A stretch of DNA of 64,000 nt from Azospirillum lipoferum 4B (GTDB lineage Bacteria > Pseudomonadota > Alphaproteobacteria > Azospirillales > Azospirillaceae). Both the position numbers and the translations under genes were made by a program. This document shows positions 2,732-51,690 of this stretch, one piece after another. The notes beneath the pieces were generated by a model, which ran no database searches, was not told the DNA's origin, and saw nothing but the letters and a program-made list of their open reading frames with translations. Within the stretch, counting starts at the first letter, position 1; every line of letters begins with the position of its first letter. The DNA lies in contig NC_016585.1 in assembly GCF_000283655.1 (NCBI RefSeq), positions 439,001-503,000 of the forward strand, in the 5' to 3' direction.

Positions 2732-2746
2732 CGGAGTCCACCCGAC

Positions 2747-4460: not shown

Positions 4461-4472
4461 GGACACCCACCC

Positions 4473-5498
4473 ATGGACATCTACTCCACCCTCGCCATGC
4501 TGGGGGTGCTGCGGTCGCTGCGCGCCAAGGCTCCCCGCTTCCTGCTGGACATGTTCTTCCCGCTGGCCAGCTTCAGCGATACCGAGAAGATCATCTTCGA
4601 CGTCGAGGTCGACGACATCGAGGTCGCTCCCTTCGTCTCGCCGCTGGCCGCCGGCCGCGTCGGCACCGACACCGGCTATGAAACCAAGATGTTCGCCCCG
4701 GCCTATGTGAAGCCGCTGCACGACATCAAGCCGGACGAGCCGCTGCGCCGGCTGGCCGGCGAACCGCTGGCCGGCAGCCTGTCGGCCGCGGCACGCGAAC
4801 AGGCGATCCTGGGGGCCAAGCTGCAGCGCCAGCTGACCCAGATTCTGCGCCGCAAGGAGGTGATGGCGGCCGAGGTCCTGCGCACCGGCAAATGCGTGGT
4901 GAAGGGCGAGAAATACCCGGAGGTGCTGGTGGACTTCCAACGCGCCGGCGACCTGTCGCTGGTGCTGTCCGCCGGCGCCCGCTGGGGCGAGGCCGGCGTG
5001 TCGCCCTATGCCGACCTGTCGGAATGGATCGACCTGGTGGGGCAGAAGTCCGGCGCCGCGGTGAATGTCGTGGTGATGGACGCCAAGGCCTGGGCGCTGT
5101 TCGAGGCCGACCCGAAGCTGGAGAAGGTGCTCGACCGCAACCTGGGGCAGGCCGCCATCGTCCAGATGGGCTTCCAGCCCGGCGTGCCCGGCACCCCGGT
5201 CTACAAGGGCCGGATCGGCATGGTTGAGCTGTACACCTACAACGACACCTACACCGAGGGCGGCGTCACCAAGCCGCTGCTGCCGGACCACACGGTGCTG
5301 CTGGGCGCCACCGGCGCCATGGAGGGCACCCAGGCCCATGGCGCCATCCTCGACCCGCGCGCCGGCTATCAGGCCCTGGAGGTCTTCCCCAAGAGCTGGA
5401 TCGAAGAGAACCCGGGCCGGCGCCTGCTGCTGAGCCAGTCGGCGCCGCTGGTCTACCCGCGGCGTCCCAACGCCTGCATGGCCGCGACGGTGAGGTGA
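4473..5498 (+). CDS. Major capsid protein (lambda gpE family)
   Basis: This 341-residue protein is the main shell subunit. It has the length of lambda gpE (341 residues) and family features: an N-terminal MDIYST segment, EKIIFDVEVDD near residue 32, a central long alpha-helical region with Arg/Lys-rich repeats, and a C-terminal ENPGRRLLLSQSAPLVYPRRPN segment typical of gpE C-termini. A 12-base gap separates it from the decoration protein gene and it has a normal ATG. Expression is expected to be the highest of the head operon. Confidence 0.92.
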   Translation: MDIYSTLAMLGVLRSLRAKAPRFLLDMFFPLASFSDTEKIIFDVEVDDIEVAPFVSPLAAGRVGTDTGYETKMFAPAYVKPLHDIKPDEPLRRLAGEPLAGSLSAAAREQAILGAKLQRQLTQILRRKEVMAAEVLRTGKCVVKGEKYPEVLVDFQRAGDLSLVLSAGARWGEAGVSPYADLSEWIDLVGQKSGAAVNVVVMDAKAWALFEADPKLEKVLDRNLGQAAIVQMGFQPGVPGTPVYKGRIGMVELYTYNDTYTEGGVTKPLLPDHTVLLGATGAMEGTQAHGAILDPRAGYQALEVFPKSWIEENPGRRLLLSQSAPLVYPRRPNACMAATVR

Positions 5499-5501
5499 TC
5501 C

Positions 5502-5831
5502 ATGGCCAAGCTGCGCCTGCTGGCCACCGTGAAGGTGGCCAAGGAGACCACGCTGCGGCCGGGGGCCGTCATCGAGGTCAAGGACCCGGAAGACGAACAG
5601 GCTGCCTCGCTGGTGGCCCGCGGCTTCGCCCGCTGGGTGAAGGCCGGCGACGGGATCGAGGAGGACGGGCTGCCGCTCGACCGCATCATCGCGGCGATCG
5701 GCCAGCTGGACCCGGCGAATGCCAAGCACTTCAGGGGCGGCAAGCCGGAGCTGAAGGCGCTGGGCGAGCTGCTGGGGGTGGACATTACCGCTGACCAGCG
5801 TGACCGGGCCTGGGCCGCCCTGCAGGGCTGA
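5502..5831 (+). CDS. Small head protein, function unknown (gpFI position)
   Basis: This 109-residue protein sits where lambda has FI, between the capsid and head-tail attachment genes. The N-terminal half is beta-rich (a KLRLLATVKV strand, then a VIEVKD strand and a VARGFARWV helix). The C-terminal half has a HFRGGKPELKAL segment and a short helical tail. I do not recognise a specific family. By position it may help head completion or packaging. It starts three bases after the capsid stop. Confidence 0.6.
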   Translation: MAKLRLLATVKVAKETTLRPGAVIEVKDPEDEQAASLVARGFARWVKAGDGIEEDGLPLDRIIAAIGQLDPANAKHFRGGKPELKALGELLGVDITADQRDRAWAALQG

Positions 5832-5837
5832 CCGGCC

Positions 5838-6140
5838 ATGGTCTTCGACGACCTCAACGCCGCCTGCATCGCCGCCTTCGGTGAGCCGGCGGTGATCCGC
5901 CGGGCCGGCCGCTCCGACGTCACCGTCATCGGCATCTTCGACCGCCGGCACTATCAGGTGGAGACGGACGACGGGCCGGTCTCCACCCTGATGACCTCGC
6001 TGGCCGTGGTCGACGCCGACATCGGCGGGCCGGTGCCCGCCGGCGCCGCCGTCGAGCTGCGCGGCCTGACCTTCACGGTGTCCGAGCCGCGGCCGGACGG
6101 GCAGGGCATGACCGTCCTGCTGCTGCGGGAGGCGCGCTGA
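5838..6140 (+). CDS. Head-tail attachment protein (lambda gpFII-like)
   Basis: This 100-residue protein has the pattern of the Phage_attach family: an acidic N-terminal segment (MVFDDLNAACIAAFGEPA), then a beta-barrel with GIFDRRHYQVE and a terminal strand pair ending in TVLLLREA. In lambda, gpFII plugs the gpW ring and gives the docking surface for the tail. The stop overlaps the next ATG by one base (TGATG). Confidence 0.75.
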   Translation: MVFDDLNAACIAAFGEPAVIRRAGRSDVTVIGIFDRRHYQVETDDGPVSTLMTSLAVVDADIGGPVPAGAAVELRGLTFTVSEPRPDGQGMTVLLLREAR

Positions 6141-6559
6141 TGCACGCCCGCACCCGCATCCGCAGCGCCATCGCCGCGGCGCTTGCCTCCATCGCTCCCG
6201 TCACCGCCAACCGGGACGATCCCTTGCCGGCCGACGCGCTGCCCTGCATCGGCCTGTTCACGCCCGACGAGGCGACCCAGGAACTCACCATGGGCAGCCG
6301 GCGCCAGATGCGGCGCATGGACCTCTATGTCGATGGCTATGTCCGCGCCGGCGCCGACCTGGACGACCAGCTCGACGCCATGGCGCTGCGCATCGAGCGG
6401 GCCATCGCCGCCGGCGGCAAGTTCGGCGGAACGCTGGACCGCATCGAGCTGCTGCGCACCGTCACCGACCGCCTGACCAGCGGCGAGCTGAAGGCCGGCG
6501 TCACCCGCCTGCAGTTCGCCGTGACCTACCAGACCAAGTTCGGCCAGCCCGACGCCTGA
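6140..6559 (+). CDS. Probable tail terminator/completion protein (gpU/gpZ-like)
   Basis: This 139-residue protein sits between the head-tail attachment gene and the tail tube gene, where lambda has Z and U. A leading helix (RTRIRSAIAAALA), a beta strand block with RRQMRRMDLYVDGYV, a helix with DDQLDAMALRIERAI and closing strands agree with the tail terminator fold, which caps the tail tube and fixes its length. Only one gene fills the Z/U slot here. A strong intrinsic terminator follows at 6587. Confidence 0.6.
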   Translation: MHARTRIRSAIAAALASIAPVTANRDDPLPADALPCIGLFTPDEATQELTMGSRRQMRRMDLYVDGYVRAGADLDDQLDAMALRIERAIAAGGKFGGTLDRIELLRTVTDRLTSGELKAGVTRLQFAVTYQTKFGQPDA

Positions 6560-6586
6560 GCCTTCCGGAGCCTCCGGAGCTTCCCC

Positions 6587-6615
6587 GCCGCCCGGATTCC
6601 GGGCGGCTTTTCTTT
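6587..6615 (+). terminator. Rho-independent terminator before tail tube gene
   Basis: A perfect 9-bp GC stem (6587-6595 with 6599-6607) with a 3-base loop is followed by TTTTCTTT. It separates head genes from the tail tube gene. Read-through by a phage antiterminator, or a second promoter, would be needed for tail expression. Confidence 0.85.
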
Positions 6616-6636
6616 GCCCGAAGGAGGGGCATTCCC

Positions 6637-7113
6637 ATGAGCGGCAACGCTGTTCAGAGCGCCGGCACGCGCCTGTTCATTTCCACCACCGCCCTGTGCA
6701 CCACCGAAGCGCAGTACAAGGCGCTCGCCTGGACCGAGGTCGAAGAGATCGAGGATATCGGCGCCTTCGGTGAGACCTTCGAGAAGGTCACCTACAAGAC
6801 GCTGGGCGATGGTGCCGTCCACAAGAAGAAGGGCACCGTCGACTATGGCTCGGGCACGCTGAAGCTGGCCCGCGTTCCGACCGGCGCCGGCCAGATCGCG
6901 ATCCGCGCCGCGGCCAAGAACCGCAAGGCGGCCTACAACATCAAGATCGAGTTCGACGACGCCCCGGACGGCGGCACGCCGACCACGATCTACCTGCGCG
7001 CCTACGTCATGTCCTACACCACCGAAATCGGCGGCAACGACAAGGTGATCGAGGCCAGCGTCGGGCTGGAAATCGACGCCGAGCCGATCGAGGTGGCGGC
7101 CGACGCGCCGTAA
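6637..7113 (+). CDS. Major tail tube protein (gpV-like)
   Basis: This 158-residue protein would stack in rings to build the tail tube. The pattern fits the phage tail tube fold: an N-terminal SAGTRLFIST strand, an EDIGAFGETFEKVTYKTLGDG loop near residues 40-60 that recurs in siphophage tube proteins, a KKGTVDYGSGTL strand and a C-terminal strand ending EIDAEPIE. It lacks the extra Ig-like domain of lambda gpV. A good Shine-Dalgarno (GAAGGAGG) lies about 10 bases before the ATG. It is flanked by hairpins on both sides (6587 and 7142). Confidence 0.82.
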   Translation: MSGNAVQSAGTRLFISTTALCTTEAQYKALAWTEVEEIEDIGAFGETFEKVTYKTLGDGAVHKKKGTVDYGSGTLKLARVPTGAGQIAIRAAAKNRKAAYNIKIEFDDAPDGGTPTTIYLRAYVMSYTTEIGGNDKVIEASVGLEIDAEPIEVAADAP

Positions 7114-7141
7114 GCGCCGGCGCCTACCTCCCACCCCTGAT

Positions 7142-7167
7142 GCCGGCAGCCCGCCCTGGCTGCCGGC
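7142..7167 (+). terminator. GC-rich hairpin between tail tube and chaperone genes
   Basis: A perfect 10-bp stem (7142-7151 with 7158-7167) and 6-base loop lies after the tube gene but has no T-tract. It may stabilise the tube mRNA 3' end or act as a weak attenuator that lowers chaperone expression relative to tube protein. Function is inferred from position. Confidence 0.45.
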
Positions 7168-7197
7168 CCTTCCCCCCGTCCACAGCGAGATCCTGCC

Positions 7198-7584
7198 ATG
7201 ACCGCCCCCAGCACGGCGCCGCGCTTCGCGCACGGCGTGATGACCATCTGCCTCGACGGCGAAGACGTCGAGCTGTTCGCCAACGTCCGCGCCAGCCGCA
7301 CCATCTGCCGCCTGTATGGCGGCCTGCAGCAGGCCTTCAGCAACACCAACGCCTTCGACTTCGACACGCTGGTGAATGTCGTCAACGCCGCGGCGGGCCG
7401 CGTCGGCAAACAGGCCGAGGCCACCGCCGAGGCGATCTTCGCCGAGGGTGTCGTCGTCGTCGCGCCGCAGGTGCTGCTGTTCCTGAATTTCCTCGCCGGC
7501 GGCGGCAAGGCGCCGAAGGTCGAGGGCGGCACCACCGAACCGAAGGTGGATGGCGAGGCCGCCGCATCGGGGGAAGCCGGCTGA
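7198..7584 (+). CDS. Tail assembly chaperone, short form (gpG-like)
   Basis: This 128-residue protein lies between tail tube and tape measure genes, the invariant place of the tail assembly chaperone pair. It has a HGVMTICLDGEDVELFANV start, a helical middle and a flexible charged tail, and no catalytic motif. In lambda, gpG and the frameshift product gpGT coat the tape measure during tail tube polymerisation. The stop at 7582 follows a run of five G residues at 7569-7573, and an overlapping open frame continues in the -1 frame. Confidence 0.7.
   Translation: MTAPSTAPRFAHGVMTICLDGEDVELFANVRASRTICRLYGGLQQAFSNTNAFDFDTLVNVVNAAAGRVGKQAEATAEAIFAEGVVVVAPQVLLFLNFLAGGGKAPKVEGGTTEPKVDGEAAASGEAG
7567..7584 (+). 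other. Candidate programmed -1 frameshift site
   Basis: The zero frame reads TCG GGG GAA GCC GGC TGA. A GGG codon inside a run of five G residues (7569-7573) can re-pair perfectly one base back, giving -1 reading GGA AGC CGG CTG into the downstream chaperone frame. The stop is only four codons later. The geometry matches lambda G/GT, though the heptamer is not the classical one. Confidence 0.5.
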
Positions 7585-7841
7585 CCTTCGCGGAGTACGT
7601 GGACCGGATGTTCCAGTACGCCACGGGCTGGCTGGGATGGTCGCGCAGCGAGGCGCTGGACGCCCCGTTCCCCGACATCCAGCTGGCCCTGGACGGGAAG
7701 GTCGATTTCCTCGCCGCCACCACTCCCGGGGCCAAGCGCCAGAGGCGCAAGCCCAAGGACACGGCGGAGCTGAAGGAGCGGGCGCGGGCCGTGTTCGGCC
7801 TGAAGCGCCCACAACAGGGCAAGGGCAGGGGCGCCGGGTGA
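7572..7841 (+). CDS. Tail assembly chaperone T region (frameshift extension)
   Basis: This 89-residue segment is in the -1 frame relative to the preceding gene. It would be made as a fusion of about 214 residues by frameshifting at 7569-7573. It begins GSRLTFAEYVDRM, has an aromatic helix (FQYATGWLGWSR) and ends in a strongly basic tail, as expected for the part of gpGT that contacts the tape measure. An independent start at GTG 7599 (GGAG four bases before) or ATG 7608 is possible. The stop lies 30 bases before the tape measure ATG. Confidence 0.6.
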   Translation, partial: GSRLTFAEYVDRMFQYATGWLGWSRSEALDAPFPDIQLALDGKVDFLAATTPGAKRQRRKPKDTAELKERARAVFGLKRPQQGKGRGAG

Positions 7842-7871
7842 CCGGCGCCCTTTTCGTTTCCGGAGACCGGC

Positions 7872-10800
7872 ATGGCTGATTTCCCCGGCATGATGGTGCC
7901 GGTCGGTGCGGACGACAGCGGCCTGCGGCGGGTGCTGTCGCAGGCGGAAGCCCGCGTCGACCGGTTCGCCGGCCGCGTCGACGGGTCCGTGCGCAAGGCT
8001 GCCGGCAGCTTCGACGCGCTGGGCCGGTCCGCGTCCGGCGTCGCCACCGCCGTGGTGGCTCTGGCCGGCGTGCAGCTCGGCGCCGGAGCCGCCGATTCCC
8101 TGGTGGAAGCCACCAAGGCCGCAATGGCGTTCCAGACCGCCATTGCCCAGGTCGGCACGCTGCTGAAGGGGGCCGATACCAGCCGCTACGCCGCCCAGGT
8201 CAAGGATCTGGCGCGGCAGTTCGGTGGGCTGCCGACCGATCAGGCCAAGGCCCTCTACGAGGTCATTTCCGCCGGCGCCTACAGTGCGGCCAATGCCATC
8301 TCGGTGCTGACCGAGGCCAACCGGCTGGCGATCGGCGGCGTCACCGACGTGCAGACCGCCGCCGATGGCCTGACCTCCGTGCTCAATTCATACGGTGCAG
8401 CGGCCGGCGGTGCGGCCAATGTCGCCGACGCCTTCTTCGCGTCCGCCGCCGCCGGCAAGACCAACATCGAGGAGCTGGCCTCCTACATCGGGCAGGTCGC
8501 CCCGATCGCGGCACAGACCGGGGTGTCGCTGGACGAGCTGATGGCCGCCGCCGCGGCGCTGACCGCCAACGGCATCAAGACCTCAACCGCCATGGACGGC
8601 ATGCGGTCGGTGATCGCCGCCGTGCTGAAGCCGTCGCAGGAAGCCACCGCGACCGCCCGCGCGCTGGGGCTGGAGTTCAACGCCGGCGCGCTGAAGGCGA
8701 AGGGCTTTGCCGGCTTCCTCCAGGAGGTGGCCGACAAGACCGGCGGCAGTTCGGAGTCGATGGCCCTGCTGTTCGGCGGTGTCGAGGCGCTGCTGCCGGT
8801 GATGGCCCTGGCCAGCCGGGAAAGCACCGCCTTCGCCGACGCGCAGCAGGAGCTGCAGAACAAGGCCGGTGCCACCGAGGCCGCCTACAGCCGCTTGGCC
8901 GAGACCGGGGAGCAGGTGGCCAGCCGCCTGCGTGCGGCGGCCGAGGTCTACCGCGTCGAGCTGGGCGACCGGCTGCTGTCCGCGGTGCAGCCGGCCATGG
9001 CCGGGCTGGCCGACAACTTCGACCGGGTGACGGCGGCGGCGGAAGCCACCGCCCTGGCTTTGGGCGCGGCCTTCGTCGCCCGCGGCATCGGGCCGGCGAT
9101 CCAGGCTGCCGGGCAGTTCGCCGCGTCCCAGGTGGCGCTGCGCAAGGAGTTGCTGACCAACACCGGCCACCTGCTGCAGAAGGAGGCCGCGCTGCGCGCC
9201 GGCGCCGCCGCGACGGTGGAGGCGGCGGCGGCCGACGTCGCCGCGGCGCAGGCTGCCCAGGCCAAGGCCCGCTCCGACCTGGCTGCCCGGGCGACGCAGT
9301 ACGAGGCGGCGGCGGCGCTCGACGCCGCCATCGGCAAGACCGCGCGCCTGGTGCAGGCCGAAGAGGCGCTGATCGCCGCCCGCAATGCGCGGGCGGCGGC
9401 CGATGCGCGGGTGGCGGAGACCACGGTCGCGCTGACCATGGCGCAGAGTGCCCAGGCCTCCGCCATCGCCGGCACCGGTGTGGCGGCCACGGTCGCCTCG
9501 CGCGGCATGGCCCTGCTGTCGGGAGCCATGGCCCTGGTGGGTGGCCCGGTGGGTGCCGCCCTGCTGGCGGGCGCCGCGGCGGTCGCGGTGTTTTCCAGCG
9601 GGATGACCGCGTCGGAAAAGGCGACGCGTCTGCACAGCGACGCGATGCGGGACTTCGACGCCGCCTTCGACCGCAGCACCGGCAAGGTGAAGACGATGAC
9701 GGAGGCGGTCGCCGCCCTGCGTCGTCAGACCCTGGAGGCTGCCCGCGACGCCGCCCTGGCGGCGGTGAAGCAGGAAGAGACCTATGCGCGTGCCGGTGCC
9801 TACAAGATCGACCGCGCCGCCTACGAGTCCGGCCTGTCGAAGGAGGACGCCGCCAAGGTCTTCGGCCCGGCCCGCGAGCTTCAGCAGCAGTTTCTCGCCG
9901 GCGCCATCGACGCCGAGGCGCTGTTCGCCGCCATCGACAAGCTGGCCAGCCAGGACGCCCGGCTGAAGCCGCTGGTCAAGGCCTTCGCGGAGTGGGCCGC
10001 CCCGCTGGCCAAGGCGAAGCAGGAGGTCAAGGAAACCGAGGCCGGGCTGGCGCTGCTGGACGGCACCGCCGACGATGCGGCCAAGGCCGTGCTCGGTGTC
10101 GGCACCGACGCGGCGACGGCGGCATCCGGCTTCCAGAGCATGGGCGGTGAGGTCGCCGGACTGACGGCGAAGCTCGCGGACCTGGTGGCGAAGTCCAAGC
10201 AGTTGGAGGTGCCGGCCGGCTACCAGCGGCGGCTGGCCGAGCTGGTCGGGCCGGAGCCGACGAACGGAGACGCCAAGGATCTCGACCTGTGGCGGCGCAA
10301 GCGCGACGCCGCCGATGCGACGCTGCGCCCGATCGTCGGCCTGGAAACCCGGGACCAGACCGCCGAGCTGGAGCGGCAGGCCAACGGGCAGCGCCTGTTG
10401 GCCGGTGCGGTCACCGACGCGGCCAAGGCGCACGCGCAGAACCGCATCGAGCTGGCCAAGGTCGCGCTGGAATACCCCGGCCTTGGGGCGGAGACGGCGA
10501 AGACTCTGCTGACGACCAAGGATTTCGGGGCGGTGCTGAAGTCGCTGCCGCTCGACCTGCAGCAGCGTTGGGCCGTGCTGCAATCGTCGTCGCAGGCGCA
10601 ACTGGCCGGGGCGGCGGCACAGGGTACGCTGCAGCTGCAGCTGCAGACCGATGCGCAGGCGCGGCTGGCCGCGGCTGCCGGCAAGGGCGAGGCAGCGACC
10701 CGGCGGGCGACGATCGAGAACCAGGTCGCGGCTGCGGCGGTTCGTGGATTGTCGGCGGCCACCCGGACCAATCTGGAGGCACAGGAGCGCTCGACCCAGC

Positions 10801-42430: not shown

Positions 42431-42445
42431 CTCGCCGCCTGTTCA

Positions 42446-42541
42446 CGGCTGGGGTGCCTGTGCGGATGCCGGATCGGCGGATGCGCGGGCTGAGACAACA
42501 CCCATCGAACCTGATCCGGGTCATGCCGGCGAAGGGAGCCG
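42446..42541 (+). promoter_or_regulatory. TPP riboswitch (THI element)
   Basis: The conserved parts of the thiamine pyrophosphate aptamer are all present in order: GGGGTGCC at 42451, GGGCTGAGA near 42488, an ACACCC segment, GAACCTGATCCGGGTCATGC (42508-42527) and CCGGCGAAGGGAG. P1 is closed by CGGCT (42446-42450) with AGCCG (42537-42541). About 85 bases separate it from the start codon. No T-tract terminator is seen. A CCCCTCC at 42577-42583 could pair with the GAGGAG ribosome site at 42611, so translational control is likely. It leads the ABC transporter operon that follows. Confidence 0.93.
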
Positions 42542-42625
42542 ACCGGAACCCGACGGACCGGCCGTAAATGCCCCGTCCCCTCCGCGTCGCTCCGCTTGCC
42601 GGCGCGTGTTGAGGAGTTTTCGGTC

Positions 42626-43762
42626 ATGCGGCGTGCGCTTCCCCTTCTGATCGGCCTGCTGGCCGCATCCTCCTGTCTGTCGTCCGCCGCCCGCGCCGAC
42701 GACACGCTGTCCTTTCCGGTGCTGGTGCCGCTGACCGGCTTCCTGTCGCTGGAGGGCACCAGCCAGCGCAACGGTGCCGTCCTGGCGCTGAAGCAGACCC
42801 CGGCCGGGATCGCCATCGCCTCCGAAGTCGTCGACACCGGCACCTCGCCCGAGGCGGCGGTGACGGCGCTGGAGCGCGCGGCCGGCAGCGGCACGGTCGG
42901 GGCGGTCGCCGCCAGCATGCTCGGCACCCAGATGCTGGCGATGCTGCCGCTGGCGCAGGAGCTGAAGCTGCCGCTGGTCACCGTCTCGGGCACCGCCTCG
43001 ATCACCGAGCAGGGCAACCCCTGGGTCTTCCGCTTCTTCCCCGGCGATGCCGTGACCAAGGCCGCCCATGCCCGCTATGTGGTGGAGGAGCTGGGCAAGC
43101 GGCAGCCGGCCGTCATCTACCAGACCACCGCCTATGGCCAGAGCGGCAAGACCCATCTCGACGCCGCCTTCAAGGCTCTGGGCGTCACCCCCGTCTTCGA
43201 GGAGGGGGTGGACCCCGCCGCCAAGGACCTGCTGCCGGTGTTGACCAAGGCGCTGGCCGCCAAGCCCGACGTGCTGGTGCTGCATCTGCATTCCGGCCCG
43301 ACCGCGTTGCTGCTGCGGCAGGCGGCGTCCAGCGGGGTGGCGGTGCCCATCGTCGCCGGCTCCGCCATGCATCAGCCGAGCACCGCCGCCCTGCTGGAAC
43401 CGGCGGAGCTGAAGGGCGTCTGTGCCGAGACCGCGGCCTCGCCCATCTCCGGCGGCACGCCGGAGGTCAAGGCCTTTACCGATGCCTACCGCACCGTCTT
43501 CGGCAAGGAGCCGGATGCCTTCGCGCTCGGCCAGTATGATGGCATGACCATGGTGCTGGAGGCGGTGAAGGCCGGCGCCCGCGGCCCCGACGCGATCCGC
43601 AAGGCTCTGTCGTCGGAGACCTTCAAGGGCCTCGCCATGACCTACAAGTCCGACGGCAAGGGCAACATGGCCCATTCCGCCGTCATCGTCTGCTATGACG
43701 GGACCAGCCGCGTGCCGGTGCTGGCGAAGCGCTACGACGACCCCGCACTCGCGGCGAAGTGA
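42626..43762 (+). CDS. LIV-type ABC transporter periplasmic binding protein, TPP-regulated
   Basis: This 378-residue protein is of the type I periplasmic binding family (Peripla_BP_6, LivJ-like). It has a signal peptide (MRRALPLLIGLLAASSCLSS, cleavage near ARA-DD), then FPVLVPLTGFLSLEGTSQRNGAVLAL, a PLVTVSGTASIT segment in the ligand cleft, and GQYDGMTMVLEAVKAG near the C-terminus. It is the first gene after a TPP riboswitch, so its ligand is probably thiamine or a thiamine precursor, not a branched amino acid. GAGGAG lies nine bases before ATG 42626. A permease gene follows four bases after the stop. Confidence 0.88.
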   Translation: MRRALPLLIGLLAASSCLSSAARADDTLSFPVLVPLTGFLSLEGTSQRNGAVLALKQTPAGIAIASEVVDTGTSPEAAVTALERAAGSGTVGAVAASMLGTQMLAMLPLAQELKLPLVTVSGTASITEQGNPWVFRFFPGDAVTKAAHARYVVEELGKRQPAVIYQTTAYGQSGKTHLDAAFKALGVTPVFEEGVDPAAKDLLPVLTKALAAKPDVLVLHLHSGPTALLLRQAASSGVAVPIVAGSAMHQPSTAALLEPAELKGVCAETAASPISGGTPEVKAFTDAYRTVFGKEPDAFALGQYDGMTMVLEAVKAGARGPDAIRKALSSETFKGLAMTYKSDGKGNMAHSAVIVCYDGTSRVPVLAKRYDDPALAAK

Positions 43763-43766
43763 GCGG

Positions 43767-44639
43767 ATGGCGGCGCTTCAACTGCTGGTCAACGGGGTGG
43801 CGCTGGGGGCGGCCTATGCGCTGGTGGCGCTGGGATTCGTGCTGGTGCTGAACGCCACCTCGGCGGTGAATTTCGCCCAGGGCGATCTGGTCATGGCCGG
43901 CGGGCTGCTGGCGGTGGCGCTGGCGCCCCTGATCCCGCTGCCGGGCATCGCCCTGCTGCCGGTGGTGCTGGCGCTGATGGCGGGACTGGGGCTGCTGCTG
44001 GCGCTGGCGGCCTATCTGCCGCTGCGCCGCCGGCCGCCGGTGTCGGTCTTCATCAGCACCATCGCCATCGGCATCATCCTGCAGAACGGCGCCGCCATCC
44101 TGTTCGGGCCGGAGCCGCGCGCTGCGCCGCCGCTGCTCGGCGACGACACCCTTTCCATAGGCGGGCTGGCGGTGCCGGAGCAGTCGCTCGCCATCGTCGC
44201 GGTGGCGGCGTTGCTGATCGGCGCGCAGCAATGGGTGTTCGCCCGCACGCAGCTTGGACGCCGGCTGCGCGCCACGGCGCAGGACCCGGAGATGGCGCGG
44301 GCCTGCGGCGTGCCGGTCACGGCGATGATCCTGGTGACCTTCGCCATCGGTGCCGCCTGTGCCGGGGCGGCGGGGCTGCTGCTCGCCAACCGCTATTTCG
44401 TCACGCCGACCGCGGGCGGGGACCTGATTTTGAAGGCCTACATCGCGGTAACCATCGGTGGCTGGGGGTCGGTGCCGGGGGCTGTGGTGGGGGCGCTGCT
44501 GATCGCGCTGTTCGAGGTGGGGGTGTCGTCGGTGCTGTCCTACCCAGTGGCGCTGGGAGCGCTGTACCTGACGCTGCTGGCGATCCTGGTGTTGCGGCCG
44601 CAAGGCCTGTTCGGCGAAGCGGTGCGCCGCCGTGGCTGA
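43767..44639 (+). CDS. LIV-type ABC transporter permease (LivH-like)
   Basis: This 290-residue inner-membrane protein has eight hydrophobic helices and the LivH pattern: LLVNGVALGAAYALVALGFVLVLNATSAVNFAQGDLVM at the N-terminus, RRLRATAQDPEMARACGVPV, and GAACAGAAGLLLAN followed by a AYIAVTIGGWGSVPGAVVGALL segment. It is the second gene of the TPP-controlled operon. Its end overlaps the GTG at 44632 of the next open frame by eight bases, but that downstream gene probably starts later, after an inserted palindrome. Confidence 0.92.
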   Translation: MAALQLLVNGVALGAAYALVALGFVLVLNATSAVNFAQGDLVMAGGLLAVALAPLIPLPGIALLPVVLALMAGLGLLLALAAYLPLRRRPPVSVFISTIAIGIILQNGAAILFGPEPRAAPPLLGDDTLSIGGLAVPEQSLAIVAVAALLIGAQQWVFARTQLGRRLRATAQDPEMARACGVPVTAMILVTFAIGAACAGAAGLLLANRYFVTPTAGGDLILKAYIAVTIGGWGSVPGAVVGALLIALFEVGVSSVLSYPVALGALYLTLLAILVLRPQGLFGEAVRRRG

Positions 44640-44658
44640 GCCGCGTCCCCCGGTGAAG

Positions 44659-44770
44659 ATTCCCTCTCCCCCCCGGGGAGAGGGTCAGGGTGAGGGGGAT
44701 TCGTTTGCCGAACGATCCTCGCGGCGCGTCCCCCTCACCCCAACCCTCTCCCCGGGGGGGAGAGGGAGTA
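44659..44770. repeat. GC-rich palindrome, type A, copy 3 (inside an open frame)
   Basis: Arms ATTCCCTCTCCCCCCCGGGG and CCGGGGGGGAGAGGGAGTA are inverted, with GGGTGAGGGGGA and CCCCTCACCC inside. Unlike the other copies it lies within an operon, between a permease gene and the fused permease-ATPase gene, and is fully open in the coding frame. Its right end supplies the GGGAG that precedes GTG 44779. Confidence 0.85.
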
Positions 44771-44778
44771 GTGTCGGG

Positions 44779-46479
44779 GTGGAGAAGCTTGCGCTGCTCG
44801 CCGGCGCCCTCGCCCTGCTGGTCTACGCGTTCGCCTTCGCCTCTCCCTATGGGCTGCGCGTGCTGACAGTTGCCGGTGTCTATGCGCTGGCGACCTTCGG
44901 GTTCCAGATCGTCTTCGGGCTCGGCGGCGCGTTGTCGCTCGCCCAGGGCGCCTTCTTCGGTGTCGGCGCCTATGTGACGGGCATTCTCGGCAGCCGCTAT
45001 GGGTTGGGCTTCGAGGCGACCTTTCCGCTGTCGATGCTGGTGCCGCTCCTGCTGGCGCTGCCGGTCGGGCTGGCGGTGCTGCGGCTGGAATCCCACTATT
45101 TCGCCCTGGCGACGTTGGGCATCGCGCAGGTTCTGCATTTGCTGGCGGTCAACCTGCCGGAGCTGACCGGCGGCTCCAACGGGCTGGCCGGGGTGCCGGC
45201 GGTGGTGCTGTTCGGCTGGACGGTGCCGCGCGGGCTGCCGATGGCGGCGCTGGTCTGGGGGCTGGTGGCGCTCGGCGGGCTGGTGGGGTGGCGGCTGGCG
45301 CGCGGGCGGCTCGGACGGTCGCTGACCATGCTGCGCGACGATCCGCTGGCGGCGGGAACGCTGGGGCTCGACGTCGGGCGGCTGCGGCTGGCGGCCTTCG
45401 GCATCAGCGCCCTGTTCGCCGGTGCGGCCGGAGCGCTGGCGGTCCACACCCAGCGCGTCGTCTCGCCGGAGGTGCTGGAGTTCCCGGTCATGGTCTCCAT
45501 CCTCACCATCGCCATCGTCGGCGGGCGGGGGCGGATGGCCGGCGCGGTGCTGGGTGCCGTGCTGCTGCTGCATCTGCCGGAATGGTTCCGCTTTCTGGAG
45601 CGCGGCTATCTGGTCGTCTATGGCGCGGCGTTGCTGCTGACCGTGCTGCTGGCGCCCGACGGGCTGACCGGACTGCTCGACCGTGCCGCCGGCCGCCTGT
45701 TCGGCCGTCCGGCCCGTGCCCTGCCGGAGGCGCGCGAACCGCCGCCGCCCGTTGCCATAGACGGGATGACGGTGGAGGAACTGGTCAAGTCCTTCGGCGG
45801 CGTGCGGGCGGTGGACGGCGTTTCGCTGGAGTTGCGGCCGGGCGGCATCACCGGGCTGATCGGCCCCAACGGGTCGGGCAAGACGACGGTCATCAACCTG
45901 CTGTCGGGGCTGGAGCGGCCGGATGCCGGGCGGGTGTGGCTCGGCGGACGGGACGTCACCGGTGCCCGCGCCGACCGTCTGGCCCGTGCCGGGCTGGCCC
46001 GCAGCTTCCAGGCGGCGATCCTGCCGGAAGGGGCCGGCGTGCTGGACGCAGTGGCCGCCGCCCGCCTTGCCGTCGATCCCGACGCGGCGACGGCGGAGGC
46101 GCATGCCCGCTGGGCGCTCGACCGGCTGGGAGTCGGCGAGCTTGCCGGGCAGGGCTGCGACGGGTTGCCGGCGGCGCTGCGGCGGCGGGTGGAACTGGCC
46201 CGCGCCCTGGTCCGCCGGCCCGCCGTGCTGCTGCTGGACGAGCCCGCCGCCGGGCTGACCGACGGCGAGAAGGCGGAACTTGCCGCCCTGCTGCGCGAAC
46301 TGGCGGGGGAGGGGATGGCGGTCCTGCTGGTGGAGCATGACATGGGCTTCCTGTTGCCCTTGGCCGGCCGGGTGCTGTGCCTCGACCGTGGGCAGGTGAT
46401 CTATGACGGCCTGGCCGATGGGGTGCGCCGGGATGCGACGGTGGCGGCGGCCTATCTCGGCCGGGCAGGAACCGCATGA
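44779..46479 (+). CDS. Fused LIV-type permease and ATPase (LivM-LivG)
   Basis: This 566-residue protein joins two transporter parts. Residues about 1-310 are a LivM-type permease (GGALSLAQGAFFGVGAYVTGIL, RLESHYFALATLGIAQ and NGLAGVPAVVLFG segments). Residues about 330-566 are an ATPase with Walker A GPNGSGKTT (about 362-370) and Walker B VLLLDEPAAG (about 483-492). The signature motif reads LPAAL instead of the usual LSxGQ. The frame is open from GTG 44632, which would add 49 residues coded by a palindromic repeat. I prefer GTG 44779, ten bases after a GGAG at the repeat's right end. It is the third gene of the TPP-controlled operon. Confidence 0.86.
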   Translation: MEKLALLAGALALLVYAFAFASPYGLRVLTVAGVYALATFGFQIVFGLGGALSLAQGAFFGVGAYVTGILGSRYGLGFEATFPLSMLVPLLLALPVGLAVLRLESHYFALATLGIAQVLHLLAVNLPELTGGSNGLAGVPAVVLFGWTVPRGLPMAALVWGLVALGGLVGWRLARGRLGRSLTMLRDDPLAAGTLGLDVGRLRLAAFGISALFAGAAGALAVHTQRVVSPEVLEFPVMVSILTIAIVGGRGRMAGAVLGAVLLLHLPEWFRFLERGYLVVYGAALLLTVLLAPDGLTGLLDRAAGRLFGRPARALPEAREPPPPVAIDGMTVEELVKSFGGVRAVDGVSLELRPGGITGLIGPNGSGKTTVINLLSGLERPDAGRVWLGGRDVTGARADRLARAGLARSFQAAILPEGAGVLDAVAAARLAVDPDAATAEAHARWALDRLGVGELAGQGCDGLPAALRRRVELARALVRRPAVLLLDEPAAGLTDGEKAELAALLRELAGEGMAVLLVEHDMGFLLPLAGRVLCLDRGQVIYDGLADGVRRDATVAAAYLGRAGTA

Positions 46480-47177
46480 GCGCGCTGCTGTCCATCCGCG
46501 GCATGACCGCCGGCTATGGCGGGGCGACGGCGCTCAATGGTGTTTCGCTGAGCGTCGCGGCGGGGGAGACGGTGGCGCTGCTCGGTGCCAACGGGGCGGG
46601 AAAGTCGACGCTGCTGAAGGCGCTGCTCGGCCTCGTGCCGGCGCAGGGGGAGCTGCGCTTCGACGGCGGCGACCTTGGGCCGCTGGCGACGGAGGTGCGG
46701 GTCCGGCGCGGCATTGGCTATGTGCCGGAGGGGCGGCGGGTCTTCCCCGGCATGAGCGTGCGCGACAATCTGGAGGTCGCCGGCCTGCCCGCCGCCCGCG
46801 ACCGCGCGCAGGATGTCGAGCGCGTCTTCGCCCTGTTCCCCGATCTGGCGGTCAAGAGCCGGGACAGCGCCTGGCGCCTGTCCGGCGGCCAGCAGCAGAT
46901 GCTGAGCCTCGGCCGCGCGCTGATGGGCCGGCCGCACCTGCTGCTGCTGGACGAACCGTCGCTCGGCCTGTCGCCCAAGCTGGCCGACGAGGTGTTCGCC
47001 GCGGTCGGCCGCATCGCCGCCGCCGGCACCGCCGTGTTGCTGGCCGAACAGAGTGCGGCGCGCGCCCTGACGGTCGCCCCGCGCGCCGTCCTGCTGCGGT
47101 TGGGGCGCGTGGTGGGGGACGGGCCGGTGGCGTCGCTGTCGGATAAGGTGCTGCGCGAGGCCTTCTTCGGCGTTTAG
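46476..47177 (+). CDS. LIV-type ABC transporter ATPase (LivF-like)
   Basis: This 233-residue ATPase is the second motor subunit of the TPP-controlled transporter. It has Walker A GANGAGKST, the Q-loop region YVPEGRRVFPGMSV characteristic of LivF, an intact LSGGQQQMLSLGRAL signature, Walker B LLLLDEPSLGL and the switch region AEQSA. It starts in an ATGA overlap with the fused gene. With an intact signature here and a degenerate one in its partner, only one of the two ATP sites may be fully active. Confidence 0.93.
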   Translation: MSALLSIRGMTAGYGGATALNGVSLSVAAGETVALLGANGAGKSTLLKALLGLVPAQGELRFDGGDLGPLATEVRVRRGIGYVPEGRRVFPGMSVRDNLEVAGLPAARDRAQDVERVFALFPDLAVKSRDSAWRLSGGQQQMLSLGRALMGRPHLLLLDEPSLGLSPKLADEVFAAVGRIAAAGTAVLLAEQSAARALTVAPRAVLLRLGRVVGDGPVASLSDKVLREAFFGV

Positions 47178-47195: not shown

Positions 47196-47228
47196 CCTGT
47201 GCAACAGGTGTCTGTCTCCTGCAACAGG
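47196..47228. repeat. Two similar short palindromic units
   Basis: CCTGTGCAACAGG (47196-47208) and CCTGCAACAGG (47218-47228) lie 22 bases apart, start to start, about two helical turns, in front of the exported protein gene at 47304. This spacing could suit a DNA-binding protein. No regulator is known for it. Confidence 0.4.
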
Positions 47229-47303
47229 ATGGGCGGTTGGGCTTGCGGATGGGGGCGGGCACGGATAGCTTCGCCGCCGCAACCATCTATGGATTACCTC
47301 GTC

Positions 47304-48623
47304 ATGACCGCCCGTTCCGTCGCTTCGCTGTCCGCGCTTCTCCTGCTGGGTGTGGCGTCGGCTCCGGCGATGGCCGAACTGGTGCCGGTCGAGCCGAGCG
47401 TTCCGCCCGCCGTCTATTACGGCCTGCCGACGCCCGAGGCCGAGATCGTGGTCCCCGGTGCCCCGGCGCAGGATGCCAGGCCCGGCGACAAGCCGGCCGA
47501 GAAACAGGGAACCGCAGCGCCGGCGAAGCCGGAGGGCCCCGGCGAACTGATCGAAAGCTGGGATGGCGGCGCCGCCAAGAAGAAGGACGGCAGCTTCGCC
47601 TATTGCGTGGCCGAGGGGGAATTCACCTCCGGCCATGTGCTGATGTTCGCCCGCAGTCCGCAGGGGGAGACCAACATCGGCATCGGCATCCCCGGCGCCG
47701 ACCTGCCCAAGGGCGGCGAATGGCCGGTCACCATCGAGGTCGACAAGAAGCTGAAACGCGAACGGATCGCCATCGCCTCGCAGCCGGACATGCTGGTGGT
47801 CTCCAACGGCAAGGACGAGGAACTGGTCAATGCCCTGATGGGCGGGAACGAACTGGTGGTGTCGTCGGCCACCGACCGCATCGCCTTCAAGCTGTCCGGC
47901 ACCAAGAAGGTGCTGGGCGACCTGAGGACCTGCGTCGACAAGGGCGGCAACGTTCCGCCGATCAAGGTCGCCGCGGGCCGCCCGGCGGAGAAGAAGAACC
48001 GTCTGCCGGAAGGGCTGGACAGCCTGCTGACCGCGGCCGGCGTGCATGATGCCGAACTGGTGCCGATGGACAAGATCCCGCAGGAGCGCCGCCCGGCCGA
48101 CGTCGCCTGGCGCTTCGGCCCCATCGTCGGCGGCATCCGGGAACGCGCGGTGGGTGAGGACGCCAGGATCGACGAACTGTCGGACGGCTTCGCCGATGCC
48201 ATGAAGCAGCGGTGCGAAGGCACCCCGACCGTCAGCCTGAACCCGTCCGAACAGGCCGGTTCGGTCTGGCTGCGCACCGGCTCGGTCGATTGCGCCATGC
48301 CCCAGGGCACGCTGCACGTCACGCTGAACTTCCTGCTGTCGCAGCGCCGCCTGTTCACCGTGATCTTCCACGAGGCGGCCGAACCGGACTTCGCGCTGGC
48401 CGACAAGGTGCGCGACAACCTCGCCCATGTCCTGCGCCGCGCCGGCACCGCTCCGGCCACGGCACCGGGGGACGCCGCATCCGTCACACCGCCCGCCACT
48501 CCGCCGGCCACACCGCCCGCCGCACCGCCGGCAGCCGAGGCCGCTCCCCCCGCCGCATCTCAGGCGGGCTCCGCTCCTCCCACGGTGAAACCGCAGGCGA
48601 AGCCGCAGCCGGGCAAGCCCTGA
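47304..48623 (+). CDS. Exported protein with IalB-like domain
   Basis: This 439-residue protein has a signal peptide (SVASLSALLLLGVASAPAMA). A Pro/Ala-rich linker is followed by a beta-rich domain at about residues 85-220 that shares ALMGGNEL, an aspartate-rich strand pattern and a terminal LRTC with the exported protein at 30803. A second domain with a Cys pair (KQRCEGTPT and VDCAMPQGTLHVT) follows, then an 80-residue Pro/Ala/Thr-rich tail, unlikely to be folded. I do not recognise a function. ATG 47289 is an alternative start five codons upstream. Probably periplasmic or envelope-associated. Confidence 0.7.
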   Translation: MTARSVASLSALLLLGVASAPAMAELVPVEPSVPPAVYYGLPTPEAEIVVPGAPAQDARPGDKPAEKQGTAAPAKPEGPGELIESWDGGAAKKKDGSFAYCVAEGEFTSGHVLMFARSPQGETNIGIGIPGADLPKGGEWPVTIEVDKKLKRERIAIASQPDMLVVSNGKDEELVNALMGGNELVVSSATDRIAFKLSGTKKVLGDLRTCVDKGGNVPPIKVAAGRPAEKKNRLPEGLDSLLTAAGVHDAELVPMDKIPQERRPADVAWRFGPIVGGIRERAVGEDARIDELSDGFADAMKQRCEGTPTVSLNPSEQAGSVWLRTGSVDCAMPQGTLHVTLNFLLSQRRLFTVIFHEAAEPDFALADKVRDNLAHVLRRAGTAPATAPGDAASVTPPATPPATPPAAPPAAEAAPPAASQAGSAPPTVKPQAKPQPGKP

Positions 48624-48843: not shown

Positions 48844-48893
48844 CATTGCGGCCGCTCCCTCGGCTGCCTGAGCCCGCCGGCCGGAGAAGACGC

Positions 48894-49703
48894 ATGGAAC
48901 GTCGCTCACGCTCGGGCGCAGCGCTGCGCCTGCTCAATTCCGACTGGGTCCGCCCCATCCTGCTGATGGTCATCCTGCTGGTTCTGTGGGATCTGTCGGT
49001 CCGGCTGTTCGGGGTGCCCGCCTATCTGGTGCCGAAGCCCGGCGATGTCGTGCTGGCGATGATCGATGAATGGCCGCGGCTGCTGTCCGAATCCGTCCCG
49101 ACCTTCACGGCGACGCTGGGCGGCTTTGCGCTGTCGGTCCTGTTCGGCATTCCCATCGCGATGCTGATCGCCGGATCGCGCACGGTGGAGGCCTATGTCT
49201 ACCCGCTGCTGGTCTTCTCGCAGTCGATCCCCAAGGTCGCCATCGCGCCGCTGTTCGTGGTGTGGTTCGGCTTCGGCCTGATGCCGAAGGTGATCGCCGC
49301 CTTCCTGCTGGGCTTCTTTCCCGTCGTCGTCTCGGCGGTGCAGGGCTTCAAGTCGGTGGATGGCGAGATGATGGATCTGGCCCGCTCGATGAAGGCGTCG
49401 CGGCTGCAGACCTTCCGGATGGTCAGCCTGCCGCATGCGCTGCCGGCGATCTTCGCGGGCCTGAAGGTCTCCATCACCCTGGCGGTGGTGGGGGCGGTGG
49501 TCGGCGAATTCGTCGGCTCCAACTCCGGCATCGGCTTCGTCCTGCAACGCTCCATCGGCAATTTCGAACTGCCCTTGATGTTCGCGGCGCTGACCGTGCT
49601 GGCATTGATGGGCGTGCTGCTGTTCTGGGTCATCGACGTGCTGGAACGCTTCGCCATCCCCTGGCATGCCAGCCAGCGCGACAAGTTCAGCCCCACCGTC
49701 TGA
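48894..49703 (+). CDS. NitT/TauT-type ABC transporter permease
   Basis: This 269-residue inner-membrane protein has about six hydrophobic helices and the BPD_transp_1 pattern: LVLWDLSVRLFGVPAYLVPKP at the N-terminus, SIPKVAIAPLFVVWFGFG, and the EAA-type loop with GFKSVDGEMMDLARSMKASRLQTF. This is close in type to SsuC, TauC and ThiX permeases. GGAGAAG precedes ATG 48894. It is the first gene of an eight-gene plus-strand cluster ending with a TetR regulator. Confidence 0.9.
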   Translation: MERRSRSGAALRLLNSDWVRPILLMVILLVLWDLSVRLFGVPAYLVPKPGDVVLAMIDEWPRLLSESVPTFTATLGGFALSVLFGIPIAMLIAGSRTVEAYVYPLLVFSQSIPKVAIAPLFVVWFGFGLMPKVIAAFLLGFFPVVVSAVQGFKSVDGEMMDLARSMKASRLQTFRMVSLPHALPAIFAGLKVSITLAVVGAVVGEFVGSNSGIGFVLQRSIGNFELPLMFAALTVLALMGVLLFWVIDVLERFAIPWHASQRDKFSPTV

Positions 49704-49796
49704 CGTCAGTCCAAAACCCGATTCACCGACAAGAACCCCGACGCCGCACAGCGCCGGCCGACGGGGCGATCCACCACCCATGGGAGGACACCGGTC

Positions 49797-50816
49797 GTGA
49801 TGAAGAAAACCATCGTCGCGGCGCTCTGCGCCTTTGCCGCCTCCACCTTGCCGGCGCAGGCCGCCGACAAGGTGACGCTGATGCTGAACTGGTACGTCTA
49901 CGGCGAACACGCGCCCTTCTATTACGGCAAGGACAAGGGCTTGTACGAGGCCGAAGGCATCGACCTGGAAATCCAGGAGGGCCGCGGCTCGGCGATCACC
50001 ACCCAACTGGTCGCTGCCAAGGGCGTCACCTTCGGCTATGTCGACGTGCCGACCATGATCAAGGCCGCGGTGAAGGGCGCGCCGGTGACCTCGCCGGGCG
50101 TGCTGCTGCAGACCAGCCCGATGTCGGCGATGGGCTTCAGCGACAAGAACATCCGCAAGCCGGAAGACATCAAGAACCGCATCGTCGCCATGACGCCGGG
50201 CGACAGCATGTCCCAGATCTGGCCGCTGTTCCTGAAGAAGACCGGCCTGAAGGAGCGTGACTTCGAAGTGGTGTCGGGCGACGCCCAGACCAAGCTGAAC
50301 GCCGTCATCAACGGACAGGCCGATTTGCTGCTGGGCTATGTCATGGACCAGAGCATGAAGATCAAGGACGCCACCGGCAAGTCGGTGACGCCGATCCGCT
50401 TCGCCGATTACGGCGTCAACATGGTCTCGTCGGGCATCATCGCCAACACCGACACGCTGAAGGACAACCCCGACCTCGTCCGCCGCTTCATGGCCGCCAC
50501 CACCAAGGCGGTGGAGGAGGCGGAGAAGGCGCCGAAGGAGGCCGCGGCTGCAATCCTGAAGGCCAACCCCAAGGGCGGCAAGCCCGACACCCTGCAGGAG
50601 GGCTTCGAGCTGACCATCCCGCTCTACCGCACCAAGGAGACGCAGGGCATGCGGCCCTTCCAGGTCACCGACGCCAACATGAAGGAGACGGTGGAGCTGC
50701 TGGTCGAATATGGCGGGCTGGACGCCTCGGCCAAGGAGAACCCCAAGCGCTTCTACACCCGCGACTTCCTGCCGGCCGACCCCGCGGCGAAGGCGATGAA
50801 CGCCGCCGCCAAGTGA
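49797..50816 (+). CDS. NMT1/THI5-like periplasmic binding protein
   Basis: This 339-residue protein has a signal peptide (KKTIVAALCAFAASTLPAQA). The mature part has the NMT1/THI5-like pattern: VTLMLNWYVYGEHAPFYYGKDKGLYEAEG, then EIQEGRGSAITTQLVAAKGV and a FGYVDVPTMIKAAVKGAPV segment. Proteins of this kind bind pyrimidine precursors of thiamine, sulphonates or nitrate. The catabolic genes that follow argue against a thiamine role here. GGGAGGA lies eight bases before GTG 49797; ATG 49800 is the alternative. Confidence 0.88.
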   Translation: MMKKTIVAALCAFAASTLPAQAADKVTLMLNWYVYGEHAPFYYGKDKGLYEAEGIDLEIQEGRGSAITTQLVAAKGVTFGYVDVPTMIKAAVKGAPVTSPGVLLQTSPMSAMGFSDKNIRKPEDIKNRIVAMTPGDSMSQIWPLFLKKTGLKERDFEVVSGDAQTKLNAVINGQADLLLGYVMDQSMKIKDATGKSVTPIRFADYGVNMVSSGIIANTDTLKDNPDLVRRFMAATTKAVEEAEKAPKEAAAAILKANPKGGKPDTLQEGFELTIPLYRTKETQGMRPFQVTDANMKETVELLVEYGGLDASAKENPKRFYTRDFLPADPAAKAMNAAAK

Positions 50817-50865
50817 CCGACCCGTGGTGACTGACCGGCCCCCCGCAAGGCACGACGAGGAGAGC

Positions 50866-51690
50866 ATGGCACAGCCTCAGTTGAAACTGGTGGGCGAGGC
50901 GGAAACGCAGCGCCTGTCCGGCGCGCCGCTGATCCGCATCGACGGCGTGAGCAAGACCTACCGCAGCCGCGACGGCGAGGTGCCGTCGCTCCACCCCATC
51001 AGCTTCGACGTGCGGCCGGGGGAGTTCCTGGTGGTGGTCGGCCCGTCCGGCTGCGGCAAGTCCACCCTGCTGAAGATGCTGGCCGGGCTGCTGCCGGTCA
51101 CCAGCGGCACCATCAGCATCGAAGGCGACGTGGTGACCGAGCCGCACGACGACACCGGCATCGTCTTCCAGAGCCCGACCCTGCTGGCCTGGAGGTCGGT
51201 GCTGCGCAACATCATGCTGCCGGTGGAAATCCGCCGCCTGCCGCGGGAGCGCTACCTGGAGCGCGCGCACAAGCTGATCGGGATGACCGGGCTGACGGGG
51301 TTCGAGAACAAATACCCCTGGCAGCTGTCGGGCGGCATGCAGCAGCGCGCCGCCCTGTGCCGGGCGCTGGTGCACGACCCGAAGATCCTGCTGATGGACG
51401 AGCCGTTCGGCGCGCTCGACGCCATGACCAGGGAGCGGATGAATGTCGAGCTGCAGCGCATCCAGTTCGAGACCGGCAAGACGGTGATCCTGATCACCCA
51501 CTCCATCCCCGAAGCGGTGTTCCTGGCCGACCGGGTGATGGTGATGTCGGAACGCCCCGGCACCATCGCCGCCACCTACGAGGTCCCGCTGGAGCGCCCG
51601 CGGACGCTGGACGTCATGGGCGACCCGGTTTTCATCCAGCTGACCCAAACCATTCGCAAGCATTTCGCGGCGCAGGGGCATCTGGATTAG
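50866..51690 (+). CDS. NitT/TauT-type ABC transporter ATPase
   Basis: This 274-residue ATPase drives the importer encoded just upstream. It has Walker A GPSGCGKST, Q-loop GIVFQSPTLLAWRSVLRNI typical of the TauB/SsuB/ThiZ group, signature LSGGMQQRAAL, Walker B ILLMDEPFGALD and switch ILITHS. ATG 50866 with GAGG five bases before is preferred over GTG 50824. A type B palindrome separates it from the enolase-type gene. Confidence 0.93.
   Translation: MAQPQLKLVGEAETQRLSGAPLIRIDGVSKTYRSRDGEVPSLHPISFDVRPGEFLVVVGPSGCGKSTLLKMLAGLLPVTSGTISIEGDVVTEPHDDTGIVFQSPTLLAWRSVLRNIMLPVEIRRLPRERYLERAHKLIGMTGLTGFENKYPWQLSGGMQQRAALCRALVHDPKILLMDEPFGALDAMTRERMNVELQRIQFETGKTVILITHSIPEAVFLADRVMVMSERPGTIAATYEVPLERPRTLDVMGDPVFIQLTQTIRKHFAAQGHLD

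Follow-up and report, generated by a model that had tools for sequence, protein, structure and literature searches.

The operon and its leader

The window analysed here is a stretch of 64,000 nucleotides (nt) from contig NC_016585.1 of Azospirillum lipoferum 4B (positions 439,001 to 503,000), all coordinates below being those of the window. On its forward strand it holds a thiamin pyrophosphate (TPP) riboswitch followed by the four genes of an ATP-binding cassette (ABC) importer of the leucine-isoleucine-valine (LIV) type. Rfam cmscan analysis reports a match with RF00059 at 42440-42554 (+; 64.5 bits, the gathering threshold being 54.3), which is full length (model positions 1-105 of 105), has an E-value of 2.3e-10 for the entire 64-kb window and is the single TPP match over the cut-off within it. 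The aptamer, or THI element, extends to its last paired base over positions 42440-42542 (+), as delimited by the cmscan match and by covariation in 32 aptamers. A preliminary description of this DNA, made from its letters, had placed a full THI element directly before the importer genes and had proposed scoring it on the Rfam TPP model; the score is not poor, and the coordinates given were right within a few bases. The leader that separates the aptamer from the ATG of the binding protein at 42626 is 83 nt long (42543-42625, +) and contains a Shine-Dalgarno (SD) sequence, GAGGAG, at 42611-42616. A terminator-like site was looked for in this leader and none was seen.

The first gene (42626-43762, +) encodes a substrate-binding protein that Pfam assigns to Peripla_BP_6 (PF13458) and that AlphaFold and Foldseek assign to the type I periplasmic binding fold. 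It is followed by a permease of the LivH type (BPD_transp_2, PF02653; 43767-44639, +), by a LivM-type permease fused to a LivG-type ATPase (BPD_transp_2 and ABC_tran by Pfam; open reading frame (ORF) 44632-46479, +), and by an ATPase of the LivF type (ABC_tran by Pfam and NCBIfam; 46476-47177, +). The four genes are at most 4 nt apart or overlap as ORFs. The Pfam families, with one PF13458 binding protein, two PF02653 permease domains and two PF00005 ATPases, make up a complete set of importer subunits and bear out the order of binding protein, permease, fused permease-ATPase and ATPase first read from the DNA. Regarding the fused permease-ATPase, most of its orthologues align from about residue 50-73 onward only, and the start of the ORF consists of a REP-like 39-nt inverted repeat (44661-44767, 95% complementary, 29 nt between the arms), which is translated in the long ORF. 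Since the orthologues leave out the first stretch and this stretch is an inverted repeat, the GTG at 44779 is the likelier start, and the ORF start at 44632 would be mis-set. In the closest genome, that of Azospirillum sp. B21 (L001, 8016-8209; locus and genome numbers, L and G, are our own), collinearity with the window breaks at 44641, between the two permease genes. Past the break, the sequence continues as window positions 35019-31429 reversed, with the importer genes parted; this is an inversion or a misassembly near the inverted repeat.

Conservation and surroundings of the element

The genome collection contains 119 relatives of the binding protein, 80 of which form the locus set. A THI element precedes the binding-protein gene in 58 of these 80 loci, 57 of them recognised by a regular expression and the last, L066, by an Rfam TPP match of 63.5 bits found among the 23 pattern-negative loci; in L049 and L064 the sequence ends too soon upstream, and these two fall into neither group. 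Covariance-model scores were obtained for 17 of the 58 element-bearing loci, 14 lying over the cut-off and three below it (L065, 53.4 bits; L048, 53.0 bits; L055, 47.0 bits), while the remaining 41 are supported by the pattern alone. The pattern-positive L040, put through Rfam as a check, scores 55.1 bits. A separate, even draw of 385 Alphaproteobacteria (hereafter the class draw) contains the binding protein in 31 genomes (about 8%). Loci were obtained for 30 of these: six come from genomes already in the set and all six show the THI pattern, and 24 are new, 15 of which carry a TPP element over the cut-off and two of which (L147 and L148) show a variant core pattern only. A search for the element before this gene in other genomes of the Azospirillum group had been proposed; it is found there and well beyond.

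The aptamers of the window and of 31 loci chosen from the 58 fit one structure, with 85.6% of cells paired as compared with 35-56% when the partners are slid. Both sides have changed in 10 of the 23 pairs, a value reached by 6 of 500 shuffles, and the clearest compensatory change, from C-G to U-A, occurs in 14 of the 32 aptamers. Against this, helix 1 (P1) is paired in just 58.8% of cells, and the 20 further pair types are not above shuffles (mean 22.1). A tree was built of 81 rows, of which 59 have the element, 20 lack it and 2 are unassigned; its deep forks are of modest support, and the label needs two changes on it, against a mean of 18.1 in shuffles. Fifteen element-negative rows, among them betaproteobacterial metagenome-assembled genomes (MAGs) and Acidisphaera, share a single region of low resolution that adjoins the Azospirillum clade. 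In the remaining five, the binding protein has no importer genes beside it and is next to a gamma-glutamyltransferase-like gene (by eye). The flanks of the element-negative loci are mixed and therefore indicate no single ligand: L033 lies beside sulphite reductase and sirohaem genes, L043 beside RecQ, L035 beside weakly AurF-like proteins and an alcohol dehydrogenase (the latter by eye), and others beside gamma-glutamyltransferase (by eye). With its covariance score, its conservation before the same gene and the complete importer behind it, the element of the preliminary description is confirmed as an observation.

In L039, L042, L044, L047 and L057, the aptamer pattern stops 7-12 nt before the start codon, and the GGAG in the 3' strand of the aptamer itself likely acts as the SD sequence. 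Translational control would be the simplest reading in these five loci, because the 3' strand is likely the ribosome site.

Upstream of the riboswitch and on the same strand, an EamA-type permease (drug/metabolite transporter, DMT) ends at 42406. At 22 nt downstream of the operon lies a gene for a protein of unknown function (47199-48623, +) that has no Pfam or NCBIfam match, whose ORF cluster is present in 17 of the 80 loci and which is possibly co-transcribed with the importer. A second ABC importer follows at 48846-51690, with an NMT1/THI5-type binding protein that is 26% identical to a TPP-controlled one in L176; no TPP element over the cut-off stands before this second importer. Close orthologues of the PF13458 binding protein (84-96% identity) are found on four records of the plasmid collection, from A. 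oryzae, A. ramasamyi, Azospirillum sp. B510 and A. thermophilum (0.4-1.5 Mb), the next records being at about 30%. No relative of the binding protein was found in the viral collection. The nearest record among those searched is reportedly a virus record that shares 32% of the 31-letter words of the window, although the sequence of the window looks like an Azospirillum replicon.

Fold and pocket of the binding protein

The AlphaFold model of the binding protein (mean predicted local distance difference test, pLDDT, of 91.3) exhibits the type I (LIV) fold. Foldseek reports 3td9 as the best PDB match (query TM-score 0.76, 24% identity), and the TM-scores of the 50 rows listed range from 0.61 to 0.83. 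The rows after 3td9 are, judging by their titles, binders of amino acids, urea and aromatic acids, and none of the PDB titles among these 50 rows mentions thiamin. In HMMER alignments, Ser246 stands opposite the Asp of the G-D-G loop in 3td9, 4gnr and 3ipc. The natural Anabaena protein 4obb, titled as a 2-oxo acid complex, has an Asn opposite Ser246, and the Asn-to-Asp mutant of that protein (4nqr/4nv3 group) is titled as a ligand complex, the name of the ligand being legible to the letter v only. Gly100 stands opposite a Ser in 3td9, 4gnr and 4obb/4nqr, and in 3ipc the Ser lies opposite Leu99. We take the aligned Ser and Asp of LIV-type proteins to hold the carboxylate and the ammonium group of the amino acid.

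An alignment of relatives comprises 58 rows, 14 from element-negative loci and 44 grouped as element-bearing (one unassigned row included). Ser246 and Gly100 are invariant in 58/58 rows, position 99 is Leu, Phe or Tyr, and Ser occurs at neither 99 nor 100. The amino-acid signature being gone, the predicted pocket residues argue against ordinary amino-acid binding in the whole family. His249 is retained in all 44 rows grouped as element-bearing and is replaced by Ser or Ala in 6 of the 14 rows without the element, suggesting that this residue, near the pocket, may relax where TPP control is lost and that it may be tied to the ligand.

The importer resembles several known systems and differs from each of them. 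ThiBPQ is also a TPP-controlled, binding-protein-dependent ABC importer; however, the ThiB model (TIGR01276) does not match the window binding protein at E 0.001, and the latter adopts the type I LIV fold, unlike ThiB, which belongs to the type II binding proteins. ThiXYZ, the NMT1/THI5-type importer of precursors of hydroxymethylpyrimidine (HMP), is a TPP-controlled ABC importer present in many of the same genomes, but it combines an NMT1/THI5 protein (PF09084) with a PF00528-type permease, whereas the window importer combines PF13458, the family that Pfam assigns to its binding protein, with PF02653. The LivJ/K-HMGF system, of the hydrophobic amino acid uptake transporter (HAAT) class, has the same subunit families and fold, again with a binding protein, two permease domains and two ATPases. 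In contrast, the window operon possesses a TPP riboswitch and a second permease fused to an ATPase, and its binding protein is devoid of the acid and the Ser of the aligned LIV-type proteins. Lastly, the LIV-type aromatic-acid proteins 4ey3, 4evq and 4f8j share the fold and, according to their titles, extend the class to non-amino-acid ring compounds, although they are just 16-22% identical to the window binding protein; we know of no riboswitch link for them.

As for published systems, one paper names thiB(P), thiXYZ, thiV and omr among TPP-controlled importers (PMC2211319), a list of B1 transporters names thiT, thiBPQ, thiXYZ, cytX and ykoCDEF (PMC12236431), and Sun et al. 2013 (PMC3766115) count 19 transporter orthologues, the Alphaproteobacteria being represented by Caulobacterales, Rhodobacterales and Rhizobiales. 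Our literature search found no TPP-controlled LIV-type importer, just as the preliminary description had known of none among the well-described transporters; an earlier listing in RegPrecise, in Rodionov et al. 2002 or in the supplement of Sun et al. is possible.

Thiamin genes and the probable ligand

The survey of thiamin genes covered 30 genomes; the element precedes the binding-protein gene in 29 of them and is missing there in that of L070. A. lipoferum 4B itself is outside the set, and 25 of the 30 are Azospirillum, Skermanella or nested in Azospirillum and hence not independent. ThiL is found in 30/30 genomes, TenA in 29/30 and ThiC in 28/30, and thiamin pyrophosphokinase (TPK) in 0/30. 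The thiazole kinase ThiM passes its cut-off in 1/30 genomes, the L070 one, and is matched weakly in another 10. Neither ThiB nor ThiK passes its strict cut-off in any of the 30, with weak matches in 15 and 26 genomes, respectively. Within the class draw, ThiM co-occurs with the binding protein in 3/31 genomes, two of which carry the element (G338 and G415), and TPK is rare in the class as a whole. Since ThiL, TenA and ThiC are present and TPK is absent in this gene survey, a vitamer usable by known routes in these hosts would be a pyrimidine precursor or thiamin phosphate, thiazole lacking a known kinase in the majority of them.

A TPP switch before an importer of the LIV class suggests an undescribed uptake of vitamin B1 or its building blocks. 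The computation shows the aptamer with its conserved place before this gene, the importer genes and their fold class, the loss of the amino-acid residues and the set of thiamin genes in related genomes; which way the switch works, through what expression platform and for which ligand is inferred. The operon is probably a HAAT/LIV-class ABC importer turned into a vitamin-B1-related uptake system that TPP represses. With ample TPP, the leader RNA would bind it and lower the expression of all importer subunits; with little TPP, the importer would be made and would bring in a B1 vitamer. This direction of control is drawn by analogy, as other TPP riboswitches act so. Judging from the thiamin genes of related genomes, the most likely vitamer is a pyrimidine-type precursor, which would be HMP or a related compound outside the range of ThiXYZ. 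Thiamin or one of its phosphates comes next, the phosphate possibly entering at ThiL, and thiazole is the least likely. The preliminary description had proposed the import of thiamine, a thiamine phosphate or a pyrimidine or thiazole precursor. Its B1 reading gains from the element, the orthologues, the complete importer and the residues that speak against amino acids, while its thiazole part is disfavoured by the scarcity of ThiM, and its free-thiamine option would need a kinase, which was not found as TPK or as ThiK over the strict cut-off in the 30 genomes.

Several observations weigh against a B1 importer. The element is lacking, by pattern or Rfam, in 20 of the 80 loci (one of them, L036, with just 233 nt of sequence before the match), and 7 of the 24 new class-draw loci have neither a TPP match nor the pattern, so the transporter is usable without it. 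The amino-acid residues are lost in element-negative rows too, and their loss alone therefore does not point to a B1 compound. An anti-SD expression platform was considered and rejected as evidence, because anti-SD segments over 56 leaders are not commoner than in shuffles, 56% of which do equally well on average. No thiamin synthesis gene is found among the window neighbours identified by Pfam, NCBIfam or ORF, as had been stated for the adjoining genes, and none is recognised in the flanks of the 80 loci, where a crude script supplied the ORFs for clustering, some of them were assigned with Pfam or on inspection and many remain without identification. A phosphoribosyltransferase gene, by eye an orotate phosphoribosyltransferase (OPRTase), could point to another pyrimidine; it follows the binding protein or the importer on the same strand in 17/110 loci (L041, L048, L049, L052, L053, L055, L056, L058, L059, L061-L065, L071, L078 and L170), both with and without the TPP element; 30 of these 110 loci are just 2.7-4.1 kb long, six of the 30 being from genomes already counted. 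The gene absences rest on known families, and the ThiB and ThiK cut-offs are so strict that 1 of 14 control genomes passes each. Over the 385 genomes, the binding protein is not significantly anti-correlated with TPK (Fisher P 0.25) or ThiM (P 1.0); avoidance of either gene by the importer was rejected, the overlaps of 0/26 and 3/42 being no different from chance, and no claim is thus built on it. Finally, a survey of TPP elements in 17 genomes, 16 of which have one before this importer (most genes being identified by eye and a few with Pfam), reveals a further TPP element before a ThiXYZ-type system in 12 of the 16. A precursor importer therefore already exists there, and the LIV-type importer, occurring in addition to ThiXYZ, suggests a different vitamer. 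In the SAR116 genome G030, the element of the ThiXYZ-type system, which precedes an NMT1-like gene (by eye) and TenA, scores 51.9 bits, under the cut-off.

Three finer versions of the B1 reading can be told apart, their likelihoods being set to add up to that of the whole. The one we tentatively favour is a pyrimidine-type precursor, be it HMP, aminopyrimidine, formylaminopyrimidine (FAMP) or an oxidised pyrimidine. Such precursors are usable via TenA and ThiD; TenA is nearly universal in the 30 genomes, and both ThiC-negative genomes, the SAR116 genome G030 and the MAG G031, carry the element before this importer, although these two may be incomplete and ThiXYZ-type importers already serve the same need in the 12 genomes above. 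That coverage turns into an argument for the second version, import of thiamin or its phosphates (thiamin monophosphate, TMP, or TPP), as it leaves thiamin uncovered. This version is possible but doubtful. TMP would be used directly by ThiL, whereas the use of thiamin would depend on cleavage by TenA or on a kinase not yet recognised; the prevalence of ThiL and TenA and the lack of ThiB over its strict cut-off in the 30 genomes fit it, but without TPK or ThiK over the cut-off free thiamin has no recognised route there, and in G032 a ThiB-like gene (by eye) is also preceded by a TPP element. Given the strictness of the ThiB and ThiK cut-offs, the second version now stands slightly nearer to the pyrimidine version than in the first tallies.

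Three of the 17 scanned genomes (G002, G004 and G038) exhibit a TPP riboswitch (58.9, 70.6 and 65.8 bits) before a cluster in the order LuxE, LuxC, ABC ATPase, permease, NMT1-type binding protein and short-chain dehydrogenase (SDR), assigned in part by Pfam and for the rest by eye. The cluster lies at 2514-8639 (-) of L173, at about 1222-7251 (+) of L174 and at 3383-9401 (-) of L175, and no paper on a TPP-linked LuxE/LuxC cluster was found in the literature search. It perhaps combines the parts of a carboxylate-to-alcohol reduction with an importer, for the salvage of an oxidised thiamin fragment. A broader and rather unlikely view is that the TPP-controlled LIV-class importer and, in some genomes, this LuxE-LuxC-ABC-SDR cluster make up an undescribed second B1 salvage route in Alphaproteobacteria. 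The importer would then take vitamers unhandled by ThiBPQ and ThiXYZ, such as thiamin phosphates or oxidised pyrimidines, and the cluster could restore the alcohol form of a carboxylated thiamin fragment by reduction.

An ordinary amino-acid or amide importer under a TPP element, supplying for instance an amino acid for thiazole synthesis, is improbable. All components belong to the LIV/HAAT class, and the one annotated record examined, that of A. ramasamyi, names the permeases of the operon as branched-chain amino acid permeases and shows no riboswitch, in a gene table without any RNA features. However, no row of the alignment has the acid or the Ser found in the aligned LIV-type proteins, and every subunit scores far under the NCBIfam cut-offs for LivK-, LivH-, LivM-, LivG- and LivF-type proteins, the binding protein reaching 48 bits on the LivJ/LivK model, with its cut-off of 477. 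Still less probable is the import of a pyrimidine that does not belong to B1 metabolism, for example orotate or uracil, with an indirect TPP link: the OPRTase-like gene accompanies the importer on the same strand, and directly behind the ATPase in L059, L061, L062 and L071, but most members have the element whereas few have this gene, which is seen in no Azospirillum locus and may be a housekeeping copy. Hydroxyethylthiazole or its carboxylate, the last of the finer versions, is the least probable ligand of all, for although a carboxythiazole is a known exogenous precursor (PMC5899164), ThiM passes its cut-off in just 1/30 genomes, the one without the element here, and in 3/31 class-draw genomes, two with it.

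If the importer carries a B1 vitamer, as we consider probable, the uptake abilities of soil, plant-associated and marine bacteria would have been assigned wrongly, and forecasts of which organisms are B1 auxotrophs or exchange the vitamin would have to be altered. A vitamin would then join the known ligands of the LIV class.

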